DNA from: an uncultured Geobacter sp.
GTDB taxonomy: Bacteria > Desulfobacterota > Desulfuromonadia > Geobacterales > DSM-12255
Reading direction: 5' to 3'
DNA length: 42,780 bases
Assembly (NCBI GenBank): GCA_937860145.1
Contig: CALMBF010000181.1
Span: forward strand, 1 to 42,780
Shown here: one piece after another, positions 36,749 to 40,101 of the stretch
How positions within the stretch are numbered: the stretch's first letter is position 1
How the letters are laid out: the number at the start of each line of letters is the position of its first letter
The notes under the pieces: model-generated
Database searches by the model: none
Told to the model about the DNA's origin: nothing
What the model saw: only the letters and a program-made list of their open reading frames with translations
Translations under genes and position numbers: made by a program

Positions 36749-37579
36749 CTATTTTCCCGCGGAATGTCTCTCTGCCAGAAGCGTTCGTGTCAGCAGGGCG
36801 AATTCATCGAGGGTCAGTGTTTCACCACGGCGCCCCCCGTCGATGCCGGCCGTGGAGAGTATGGCTGCCAGGCGCTCGCTGTCAGCCACCAGGTCGGCCG
36901 ACCGGAGGCAGTTCCACAGGGTCTTGCGGCGCTGGCTGAAGGATGCCTTGACCACCTGCCGGAAGAGGCGTTCGTCCCCCACGTCTGCCCGGGGTGCTGC
37001 CAGCGGCCTGAAGCTGAGCACCACCGAATCGACCTTCGGTACCGGATGGAATGCCCCGGGCTTGACGACGAACTCCCGGGTGACATCGAAATGAAGGCGG
37101 CAGAACAGGGTAAGGATCCCGTACTCCTTGCAGGCAGGCGGCGCAGCCAGGCGGTCACCGACCTCTTTCTGCAGCATCAGTATGAGGTGGGAGAAGAGGC
37201 GCGGCGTTTCCAGGAACTTGAGCAGTACCTGGGAGGAGATGTTGTAGGGGAGGTTGGCCGCCACCTTCCAGGGGGCGGTGCTGCGGCTGCCGAGGAGTTG
37301 CTGCAGGTCGGTGTCGAGGATGTCGGCTTCCACGACGGCAAAGTTGTTATGGGAGGCAAACTCCTTTGCCAGGAGCGGCGCGAGGCGGCGGTCCAGTTCC
37401 ACCGCCACCACCGATGCTCCCGAGGAGACCAGTTCCCGGGTCATCGCCCCCTGCCCCGGACCGATCTCGAGGATATGATCGCCACTACGGGGAGCAACCA
37501 GGTCGATGATGCGGTTGACCACGTTGCGATCGACGAGAAAGTTCTGCCCCAGCATTTTCACTGCCCTGATAGTTCCCAC
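36749..37579 (-). CDS. rsmA: 16S rRNA dimethyladenosine transferase
   Basis: 276 aa KsgA-family enzyme that dimethylates two adjacent adenines in helix 45 of 16S rRNA. KMLGQNFLVD at the N-terminus, motif I ILEIGPGQGAMT, VVAVELD, and the catalytic NLPY at residues 109-112 are present, with the C-terminal helical domain VVKASFSQRRKTLWNCLRS. The GTG at 37579 shares one base with the tsaD stop (TAGTG). An ATG at 37555 would remove the conserved residues before GQNFL, so I prefer the GTG. Confidence 0.94.
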   Translation of the reverse strand: MGTIRAVKMLGQNFLVDRNVVNRIIDLVAPRSGDHILEIGPGQGAMTRELVSSGASVVAVELDRRLAPLLAKEFASHNNFAVVEADILDTDLQQLLGSRSTAPWKVAANLPYNISSQVLLKFLETPRLFSHLILMLQKEVGDRLAAPPACKEYGILTLFCRLHFDVTREFVVKPGAFHPVPKVDSVVLSFRPLAAPRADVGDERLFRQVVKASFSQRRKTLWNCLRSADLVADSERLAAILSTAGIDGGRRGETLTLDEFALLTRTLLAERHSAGK

Positions 37580-38607
37580 TACGGTCTCGTCTCCAGTTCT
37601 GTGCTGATGGTATCGAGCGGCCAGTTCGGGACGGCGTCGAAACCGAGGCCGGTGATCCCCCGCTCGTGGTAGAAATCACCCGGTACTCCGAGCATGGCGG
37701 CGTTGTCGGCGCAGAGGCCCGGCGACGGGAAGTACACGGAGACCCCCTTCTTCTCGGCGAGATTCTTCATGGCGCTCCGTAGACCGCTGTTGCAGGCAAC
37801 GCCACCGGCAACCACCAGGCGTGAGCACCCCGTGCGCTCCAGGGCCGAAGCCGCCTTTCCGGTGAGCACCTGACAGACCGCCTCCTGGAAGGAGGCGCAG
37901 AGGTCGGGGAGCAGCGCCTGGCTTGCATATTCCGGATGGCGGCGCAGGTGTGTCATGACCGCGGTTTTCAGGCCACTGAAGCTGAAATTCAGGCTTCCGT
38001 CGTGGAGCAGGGGGCGGGGGAAACTGATGGCGCGGGGGTTTCCCTGGCCGGCAAGACGGTCGATATGGGCGCCACCGGGATAGGGTATCCCCATCAGTTT
38101 GCCCACCTTGTCGAAGGCTTCGCCGGCCGCGTCGTCGATGGTCTGGCCCAGGGTACGGTACTGCCCCACCCCCCTGACCTCGTAAAGATGGGTATGTCCA
38201 CCGGAGACGACCAGGGCGACGAAGGGGAACGCCACCTCCTGCTCAAGTAGGATTGCCAGCAGGTGAGCCTCGATGTGGTTGACCGCCACGAGGGGAATAC
38301 CCCTGCCGATGGCAAGCCCCTTGGCGGTACAGACCCCGACCAGCAGTGCCCCGATCAGACCCGGTCCGCGGGTTACCACGATCCCTTCCATGTCCTCAAT
38401 GGCAGTGCCGGCTTCGTTCAGTGCCTGCTCGACGACGAAGTCGATGCTCTCCAGGTGCTTGCGGGATGCGATCTCCGGGACCACTCCGCCGTATTCGGCA
38501 TGGATGTCGATCTGGGAAGCGACGACACTGGAGAGGACTGTCCGTCCGTCCCGCACGACCGCCGCGGCGGTCTCGTCACAGGATGTCTCGATACAGAGTA
38601 AAAGCAT
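37579..38607 (-). CDS. tsaD: tRNA threonylcarbamoyladenosine transferase TsaD
   Basis: 342 aa Kae1/YgjD family, which transfers threonylcarbamoyl to A37 of ANN-decoding tRNAs. IETSCDETAAAVV at the N-terminus, metal-binding His111 and His115 in VNHIEAHLLAI, VVSGGHTHLYEV, the DDAAGEAFDKVGKLMGIPYPGG segment and LVVAGGVACNSGLR are all intact. It follows the inverted-repeat element, whose near end is 59 bp before the ATG. No strong ribosome binding site is seen. Partner genes tsaB, tsaC and tsaE are elsewhere. Confidence 0.96.
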   Translation of the reverse strand: MLLLCIETSCDETAAAVVRDGRTVLSSVVASQIDIHAEYGGVVPEIASRKHLESIDFVVEQALNEAGTAIEDMEGIVVTRGPGLIGALLVGVCTAKGLAIGRGIPLVAVNHIEAHLLAILLEQEVAFPFVALVVSGGHTHLYEVRGVGQYRTLGQTIDDAAGEAFDKVGKLMGIPYPGGAHIDRLAGQGNPRAISFPRPLLHDGSLNFSFSGLKTAVMTHLRRHPEYASQALLPDLCASFQEAVCQVLTGKAASALERTGCSRLVVAGGVACNSGLRSAMKNLAEKKGVSVYFPSPGLCADNAAMLGVPGDFYHERGITGLGFDAVPNWPLDTISTELETRP

Positions 38608-38666
38608 AGATATTCAGGAAGTTCTTTCAGGCAGTGCTGCCGCTAAGGAGAATTATTGGTTCTGAA

Positions 38667-38787
38667 TAAGTCACAATTTTCGATGCAGGAGCTGGGCGTC
38701 CCGAGGATGGTCGCTGAGGCGTAGCAGCGCTACGCCGCACAAGAACAGCCGAGGGCAACCGGCTGCCTGCGCGAAAAGTGTGACTTA
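38667..38787. repeat. MITE-like inverted-repeat element abutting phoH
   Basis: Ends match as TAAGTCACA (38667-38675) and TGTGACTTA (38779-38787). The match continues inward for about 26 bases with few changes (TTTTCG, GCAGG, AGC). A perfect internal hairpin GGCGTAGC/GCTACGCC with a 3-nt loop lies at 38718-38736. If the outer TA at each end is a target duplication, the core is 38669-38785 (117 bp). It has no reading frame of its own. On the minus strand the phoH stop codon TAA is made of the TA plus the first A of the element. I associate repeats of this look with Geobacter genomes; copy number is unverified. Confidence 0.8.
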
Positions 38788-40101
38788 CAAAAGATTGGCA
38801 GCGAGTTCGGCCAGTTCCGACCTCTCCCCCTTCGTCATCGTAATATGTCCGGTTATCTTGAGGTTTTTGAGGCGTTCGACAAGATACGTTAAACCGTTGC
38901 TCGAAGAGTCCACGTAGGGATTGTCGATCTGGTAGGGGTCACCGGTAAGAACGATCTTGGTCCCCTCCCCCGCCCTGGTGATGATGGTCTTGATCTCGTG
39001 GGGGGTGAGGTTCTGTGCCTCGTCGACGATCATGAACTGGTTGGGGATGGAACGTCCGCGGATATAGGTGAGTGGTTCGATCTCCATGATTCCCATCGCC
39101 ACCAGTTCCTTGTATCCCTTGCTGTGGCGCTTTTCAGCCTCGTGCCCGGAGAGGAGCAGTTCCACGTTGTCGAAGATCGGCTGCATCCAGGGGGCGAGCT
39201 TCTCCTCTATGTCCCCGGGAAGGAACCCGATATCCTTCCCCATGGGGAACACCGGACGGGATACCAGTAACCGGTTGTAGACGTTCTCCTCGGCAACCTT
39301 GTGCAGGCCGGCGGCAATCGCCAGCAGCGTCTTGCCCGTGCCAGCCTTGCCCACAAGGGTGACCAGTTTGATGGAGTCGTCCAGCAGCATGTCCAGGGCA
39401 TAACTCTGCTCCCGGTTGCGGGGGAAGATGCTCCAGATACCGTCCTTCCCCCCTTTGCGGAGGGGGAGGATCTTCTCCTGAGTGGCATCGTAGCGGCCGG
39501 AGGCGGAATGGGCGGCATTGGCAGCGTCAGTCATGGTGACGTACTGGTTGGCGAGCATGTTCGCCATGGGGGCGATCCACCCCTGGCCATGGAACGTGTC
39601 GACCGTGACGGCCTCCACGGCCACCTCGGTCATGCCGCTGTAGAGATCCTCTATTTCCACCTTGTCGGACTCGTAATCTTCGGCGGTCAGGCCGAGGGCA
39701 TCGGCCTTGATGCGCAGGTTGGTATCCTTGGACACGAGGATGACGGGGCACTTGTCTTCCTTGTGCTTGATGTCCATGGCAACGGCCAGGATCCTGTTAT
39801 CCCCCTTGTCGATGCGCAGCTCGGGAGGAAGGGCACTGATGGCCCTTTCTTCGAAGATCTCAACCCTCAGGATACCGCCGGAGGGGAGAGAAATCCCCTT
39901 CGAGAGGCACCCGCTGGAGCGGAAGTCATCGAGGAGACGCGAGACCTGACGGGCGTTTCTGCCGGTTTCGTTCATGTCCTTCTTGAACTTGTCGATCTCC
40001 TCGATCACGGTGATAGGCACGACAATGGTGTTCTCCTGGAACCGGTAGAGAGCGTAGGGATCGTACAGCAGGACATTGGTATCGAGAACAAAAGTTTTCA
40101 T
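38785..40101 (-). CDS. PIN-PhoH ATPase/ribonuclease-like protein
   Basis: 438 aa. The N-terminal PIN domain (1-140) keeps acidic residues Asp7 (LDTNVLLYD), the EE of VIEEIDKF, Asp101 (DNRILAVA) and Asp126 (SKDTNLR). The C-terminal PhoH ATPase has Walker A GKAGTGKT (251-258) and Walker B MIVDEAQN (DEAQ at 360-363), plus GLHK...VSRPVFPMGKDIGFLPGD. PhoH2-type proteins of this build unwind and cut RNA in mycobacteria. AAAGGA precedes the ATG. It follows a lipoprotein gene by 14 bp. The stop codon is completed by the inverted-repeat element, so the natural stop may have been remade on insertion. Confidence 0.93.
   Translation of the reverse strand: MKTFVLDTNVLLYDPYALYRFQENTIVVPITVIEEIDKFKKDMNETGRNARQVSRLLDDFRSSGCLSKGISLPSGGILRVEIFEERAISALPPELRIDKGDNRILAVAMDIKHKEDKCPVILVSKDTNLRIKADALGLTAEDYESDKVEIEDLYSGMTEVAVEAVTVDTFHGQGWIAPMANMLANQYVTMTDAANAAHSASGRYDATQEKILPLRKGGKDGIWSIFPRNREQSYALDMLLDDSIKLVTLVGKAGTGKTLLAIAAGLHKVAEENVYNRLLVSRPVFPMGKDIGFLPGDIEEKLAPWMQPIFDNVELLLSGHEAEKRHSKGYKELVAMGIMEIEPLTYIRGRSIPNQFMIVDEAQNLTPHEIKTIITRAGEGTKIVLTGDPYQIDNPYVDSSSNGLTYLVERLKNLKITGHITMTKGERSELAELAANLL

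Follow-up and report, generated by a model that had tools for sequence, protein, structure and literature searches.

A palindromic element at the phoH stop codon of an uncultured Geobacter sp. belongs to an extensive, old family of small, probably mobile repeats

The hairpin element between phoH and tsaD

The window, that is, the whole stretch of 42,780 nucleotides analysed here from an uncultured Geobacter sp., contained a 121-nt imperfect palindrome at positions 38667–38787, located between two minus-strand genes and with the stop codon of the upstream gene inside it. The upstream gene (38785–40101) was presumably of the phoH type (PIN + PhoH), while the downstream gene, called in the same direction (37579–38607), was taken to be tsaD, whose start at 38607 lay 177 nt past the phoH stop. 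The terminal arms of the palindrome (38667–38682 and 38772–38787) were 16 nt long, with a complementarity of 94%, and the whole element folded at −69.4 kcal/mol, compared to a mean of −41.3 kcal/mol in shuffled sequences (z = −7.9; none of 200 shuffles equalled it). A perfect inner hairpin, located at 38718–38736, read GGCGTAGC-AGC-GCTACGCC on the plus strand and GGCGTAGCGCTGCTACGCC on the phoH strand, the latter matching a published central palindrome, GRCGTAGCGCTGCTACGCC. As phoH is encoded on the minus strand, the element, when read in phoH sense, began with the three bases of the phoH stop codon TAA (38785–38787), which close it in plus-strand coordinates, and this TAA paired with a TTA at the far end. 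In the same sense, the outer stem of the fold consisted of a 5′ arm holding the phoH stop (TAAGTCACA, 38779–38787, minus strand) and a 3′ arm (TGTGACTTA, 38667–38675, minus strand), the head of the element (38787) being beside phoH and its tail at 38667. Hence, the inverted-repeat ends, the perfect internal hairpin and the phoH TAA within the end of the element, all of them claimed in the original prediction, were confirmed. The TA claimed at both ends was likewise present, although it formed part of the paired arms and was not proven to be a target duplication; indeed, no target duplication was recognisable at this copy.

No ORF of at least 60 aa was found inside 38667–38787, in line with the non-coding nature of a MITE. 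Moreover, the Rfam covariance models gave a single unrelated match in positions 38400–39000 (E = 5, below the gathering score) and none at the gathering score in three loci carrying copies of the element.

The family and the phoH site in related genomes

When the element was searched against the host genome with BLAST, 38 matches were obtained, among them the window copy, which was the only full-length match, while the others covered the centre. A total of 30 copies were inspected; they lay in hairpins with a length of around 120 nt, although some folded poorly. Across copies, the centre GGCGTAGC-AGC-GCTACGCC and its neighbouring positions were nearly constant, and the outer arms varied yet kept their complementarity. 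An attC-like site, considered because of the fold, was rejected, as attC sites show the reverse of the pattern seen here, in which the centre is conserved and the outer part varies. Furthermore, ten host copies (L199, L200, L201, L203, L204, L207, L209, L210, L211 and L212, on contigs C58, C11, C200, C201, C57, C144, C12, C90, C198 and C129) harboured a second palindromic repeat of about 90 nt (CCCTCTCTCTATCTC...) nested in the loop of the core hairpin, and other, differing insertions were found in the middle of L213 (host contig C1) and of the phoH copy of genome G005 (L183).

A covariance model was built from 28 out of the 30 inspected copies, the odd copies L024 and L029 being omitted from the alignment (A1). 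The window copy matched it on the minus strand over 38667–38787 (model R1, 85 bits, E = 2.1e−16), and 66 matches were obtained in the host at E ≤ 0.01, of which 45 had E ≤ 5e−9, part of the weaker ones being the opposite strand of the same palindrome. The family was therefore multicopy. Applied to 28 genomes of the order, among them the host, the same model detected it in 24, with no match in the four genomes of family f2. Phylum-wide, with stricter filters, 21 out of 148 genomes had matches at E ≤ 1e−6, among them the host and three others of the same order. In addition, an exact search of named genomes found at least 112 stretches, and the 80 titles listed were mostly from Geobacter, Geotalea, Oryzomonas, Pelotalea, Pelobacter, unnamed Geobacteraceae and Deltaproteobacteria. 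Three of these 80 belonged to a MAG labelled Nitrospirae (GWC2_56_14), in which L048, L073 and L087 showed the core and class B-like copies, from either transfer or misbinning. In distant families (L268–L283), the class A element mostly appeared inside a further outer stem, TAGTTTCCATCC ... GGATTGGAAAC, and in several of these loci a TAG closed a long open frame.

The pairing was maintained despite the variation of the arms. In A1 (MAFFT, 28 copies), 89.6% of the cells were paired, compared to 71.6% after shuffling and 40–46% when the structure was slid; changes on both sides were found in 29 out of 38 pairs (186 cells vs. 61.8 in shuffled alignments), and the covariation score was 0.487 (0.171 shuffled, 0.11–0.20 when slid), these values being counted on an RNAalifold structure derived from the same alignment, with shuffles that keep the relatedness of the copies. 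The variation concerned the outer and middle helices, while the core helix hardly varied. Such compensatory changes could alternatively stem from template-switch repair of palindromes, and not from selection.

A literature search for the letters of the core matched only one paper, where Aklujkar et al. 2009 described the central palindrome GRCGTAGCGCTGCTACGCC in G. metallireducens and reported sequences resembling it from G. sulfurreducens, G. uraniireducens and Desulfotalea psychrophila (PMC2700814). The repeats of that account and those found here share an identical GRCGTAGCGCTGCTACGCC, the intergenic location and the presence of many copies, also in other Geobacter, and both the central palindrome and the multicopy intergenic occurrence in Geobacter relatives were observed for the present element. 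One copy of the published family was also reported at the same place in two species, between dapAB and dapL (PMC2700814). In contrast, the passages of that paper dealing with these repeats do not mention a covarying hairpin of 120 nt, a position at stop codons, an orientation or duplications. Nor was any account of stop-codon targeting by this family found in the literature, mostly open-access, on Geobacter repeats and MITEs, as far as its relevant passages go. In Geobacter-type bacteria, the family to which this element belongs is large, old and made up of small mobile repeats.

The phoH gene was found in 25 out of the 28 genomes (host included), and the element stood right behind its stop codon in ten of them (G000, G002, G004, G005, G006, G009, G011, G014, G017 and G024), while one genome (G001) had a decayed remnant and the other 14 lacked the element, with tsaD not being found beside phoH in two of these. 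The element was therefore not fixed in the orthologous phoH–tsaD gaps. The outer arms were common to G000 and G004, which belong to different genera, while among their congeners G001 kept only the remnant and G007 had a gap of 4 nt; for this reason, the insertion most likely predates the split of the two genera, as judged from these sequences. Between G000 and G004, 40 pairs were unchanged, three had changed on both sides and four were broken. In other genera, the arms at the phoH site differed and still paired (GGAGTGC/GCACTCC, GGAACGCG/CGCGTTCC and GAAACGCG/CGCGTTTC). Moreover, the copy that G005 carried at this position was of class B, which implies repeated insertion or conversion at the site. 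The phoH stops of the ten element-bearing genomes included TAA, TAG and TGA, and TAA was also common to relatives without the element. The original prediction had the stop codon regenerated by the insertion, which is not needed, because the TAA is shared with element-free relatives, the copy most likely predates the split of the genera and no duplication is recognisable. That the outer stem was a pre-existing hairpin used as a target was rejected for this site, given that its arms appeared behind phoH in none of the 14 element-free relatives and that G007 had only the 4-nt gap. Nevertheless, other long hairpins were found behind the phoH stop in the element-free G020, G018, G021, G013 and G019 (L190, L191, L193, L195 and L197), so that a target of this kind is conceivable in general.

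Stop codons and target duplications

The positions of the copies relative to genes were analysed in 137 out of 186 copies, the rest being folded to <100 nt or duplicates (own loci were fetched twice among the 186); 85 of them, window copy included, were assigned to class A and 52 to class B. With a home-made codon-score gene caller, and orthologous copies possibly counting more than once, the head end of class A adjoined a stop codon in 77 out of the 84 copies with a called neighbour and a start codon in the other seven. In 76 out of 84 the distance to the stop was <20 nt (one copy was at −32 and the others ranged from −20 to +13, with negative values arising from folds running into the gene). 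Between co-directional neighbours, 70 class A copies had the order stop–start and only six the order start–stop (P = 6e−15). For class B, the head adjoined a stop in 34 out of 51 copies and a start in 17, and both orientations were used (27 vs. 11), limiting the argument from orientation to class A.

Such a position would not result from a free choice of TA, as only 189 out of 1,540 TA dinucleotides lay in a stop codon in 316 co-directional gaps without the element. Furthermore, TAG accounted for 62 out of 107 flush stops, compared to 121 out of 510 stops in the other called genes, obtained by subtraction (P = 2e−11). Specifically, the flush stops of class A were 41 TAG, 18 TAA and 17 TGA (n = 76), and those of class B were 21 TAG, seven TAA and three TGA (n = 31), the TGA stops of both classes not fitting an NTAR target. 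The orientation bias of class A is also unexplained by insertion into NTAR sites, which are nearly symmetrical. In a separate case, the putative nuoA frame of G002 at L229 (probably nuoA–nuoB) had no stop before the element and seemed, by eye, to end at the TAG of the core. A variant of the element with a different core, CGTCATTGCGACGTACC... in L242 (G009) and CGTCATTGCGGCGTACT... in L247 (G006), was observed right behind a TAG stop.

The two classes differed in their ends. Inside their flanking 4-mers, class B copies with both ends measured 137–162 nt, 140 being the usual length, and their ends were fixed, near (C/G)AGGYTGTTGAAAAAC, forming terminal inverted repeats common to the class, while the arms of class A, window copy included, were complementary but without a common terminal sequence. 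Perfect 4-bp duplications were found in 11 out of 41 class B copies, compared to 2.0 expected (0 out of 20,000 shuffles), namely CTAG, TTAG (two), GTAG (two), ATAG, CTAA (two), TTAA, TAAG and AGGG, nine of which corresponded to NTAG or NTAA; the AGGG/AGGG pair (L224) had no TA. The remaining 30 copies had no identical flanking 4-mers, either from age or otherwise. Among eight of the 11 duplicated copies examined for stops, the head was at a called stop in five and the tail in one. The match extended to the base before the TA, position 1 being identical in 22 out of 41 copies vs. 13.3 expected (50 out of 20,000 shuffles were as high). In the heads of 106 class B copies, the TA position had T in 67% and A in 64%, confirming that TA is frequent at other copies, and the preceding base was C in 29%, T in 38%, G in 17% and A in 16%.

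An empty site was available for the close pair G002/G011, where ACATAGGAGGG corresponded to ACAATAG-element-ATAGGAGGG, with one extra A; this single site fits a duplication of any length from TA up to ATAG. In the same pair, class B copies occupied the same sites in reversed orientation at L220/L246 and L221/L243, by inversion or repeated insertion. For class A, the test covered the copies folding to 112–127 nt (55 out of 85), and perfect 4-bp duplications appeared in four of these 55 clean copies vs. 0.6 expected (1 out of 1,000 shuffles), as the best of 16 offsets, so that the support is weak once corrected; one of the four was ATAG at the TAG stop of L123.

The transposases searched for were DDE_3, PF01609 and Y1, in a host assembly that is a draft, 95% complete. 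DDE_3 (PF13358) had no match in six of the eight genomes tested, host included, and the two genomes with matches did not include Oryzomonas japonica, which had the most class B ends among seven genomes compared. At the nine PF13358 loci of these two genomes, neither class A, class B nor core motifs were found with ≤3 mismatches, except for one class A match with three, and a candidate inverted repeat around the IS630-type gene of G009 differed from the ends of the family. Similarly, PF01609 (IS4/IS5) matched in four out of six genomes but neither in the host nor in O. japonica, and the five PF01609 loci had no class B end with ≤2 mismatches. The only Y1 gene of the host was on contig C166, in which the covariance model had no match. 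Finally, no facing pairs of class B ends at IS size were seen by eye in seven genomes (one mismatch), and class B pairs at such a distance in L058, L063, L073, L125 and L139 enclosed host-type genes, also judged by eye.

Origin and possible role of the element

Alternative accounts of how the copies moved were compared with these data. The original prediction proposed a MITE of the IS630/Tc1 type that hit the TA of the phoH stop, duplicated it and regenerated the stop. IS630/Tc1 elements duplicate TA (PMC2170065), and IS630 is cited in the reference list of that paper as preferring the TA in CTAG. The frequency of TA at class B heads, the TA at both ends of the window copy and the duplicated TA of the single empty site agree with the prediction. 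However, the duplication comprised 4 bp including the base before the TA, in one case without any TA, PF13358 was absent from the host and from O. japonica, and the inverted repeat in G009 was a different one, which makes this type quite unlikely for the family. It is largely refuted by the 4-bp duplications, although finding CAGGYTGTTGAAAAAC at the ends of an autonomous DDE_3 element would revive it; no IS630-type transposase with matching ends was found in the eight genomes tested. IS5-type elements produce a 4-bp YTAR duplication, similar in length and form to that observed, in contrast to the lack of PF01609 matches in the host and O. japonica. Mobilisation as a REP, by a transposase of the Y1 (RAYT) type, would account for the palindrome, its intergenic location, the excess of TAG at stops and the Y1 gene of the host. 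Single-strand Y1 transposition is not expected to leave 4-bp duplications, though, and the class B heads (106 copies) had no terminal GTAG tag, the Y1 contig had no copy matching the model and the elements were 121–146 nt long instead of 20–40, so that this explanation was considered very unlikely.

A non-mobile family of regulatory RNAs, like the ‘predicted short RNA elements’ of Aklujkar et al. 2009, would explain the shared core palindrome, the covariation, the sense orientation behind stops and the same phoH place in several genera. It is unlikely nonetheless, given the copies at dozens of unrelated loci, the differences in presence and absence between sister species and the terminal repeats and target duplications of class B, with which the term ‘non-mobile’ is hard to hold. 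As for intrinsic termination or attenuation in the phoH–tsaD gap, the hairpin right behind the stop was very stable and one short terminator-like match was found within the element on the phoH strand; on the other side, no T-run followed the long hairpin on that strand and class A copies were mostly between co-directional genes. Such a function is highly improbable, and the terminator role of the original prediction was accordingly not sustained.

The explanation that we favour, and regard as reasonably probable, is that the element is an old class A copy of a non-autonomous, MITE/REP-like family that spreads at stop codons, now probably serving as a post-stop hairpin in the mRNA. The MITE-like nature in the original prediction holds in kind, given the multiple copies, the association with stops and the repeats, duplications and empty site of class B; its insertion at the phoH stop finds no duplication at that copy. 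Small stable stems, many copies and a location within operons are also described for MITEs of other bacteria, among them Chunjie from Geobacter uraniireducens (PMC10969869), RUP and NEMIS/Correia (PMC2229807), and class B shares with them the terminal repeats and duplications. In contrast, class A has no common terminal sequence, the duplication is of 4 bp and mostly NTAR and no parent IS was found, Chunjie being set beside the family by its description. Insertion would occur preferentially at stop codons by a transposase acting in trans, which would duplicate 4 bp, mostly N-TAG or N-TAA, as shown for class B, weakly indicated for class A and presumed for the window copy; a gene hit at its stop would in this way keep a stop. 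The phoH copy would now be immobile or rarely mobile.

Once inserted, a copy would become part of the operon mRNA. Selection on the RNA hairpin is probable, given that the stems stayed paired by compensatory change and that class A copies share one orientation. Most likely, the hairpin would form a highly stable structure just past the stop, between cistrons, and serve as an end point for 3′–5′ decay or a site of RNase III-type cutting, and possibly as a ribosome brake at the stop, by likeness to the REPs of E. coli; by this analogy, the hairpin between phoH and tsaD may have such a role in its mRNA. It is conceivable, albeit doubtful, that a mobile family landing at stop codons has had its older copies co-opted as sense-oriented post-stop hairpins that tune mRNA ends and termination in Geobacterales and beyond. 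If so, a repeat family without a mechanism since 2009 would be explained, landing at stops would be a way for a mobile element to proliferate within operons while doing little damage, and orientation, covariation and RNA ends would provide a clear test of repeats becoming regulatory RNA.

Palindromes behind genes are also known from REPs: those with GTAG ends often supply the TAG stop to flanking ORFs (PMC3733652), while in E. coli ribosome stalling has been linked to REPs at ≤15 nt from a stop, and mRNA half-life to REPs located in 3′ UTRs (PMC12306157). An earlier study cited there placed 260 out of 496 E. coli REPs at a stalling distance from a stop, and the paper's own count is 446 out of 4,072. 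Compared to the REPs described in these sources, the present family is longer (121–146 nt), has 4-bp duplications and showed neither the GTAG tag nor a link to RAYT. The distance from the phoH stop to the window copy was 0 nt, within the ≤15 nt of the translation-modulating REPs of the E. coli type.
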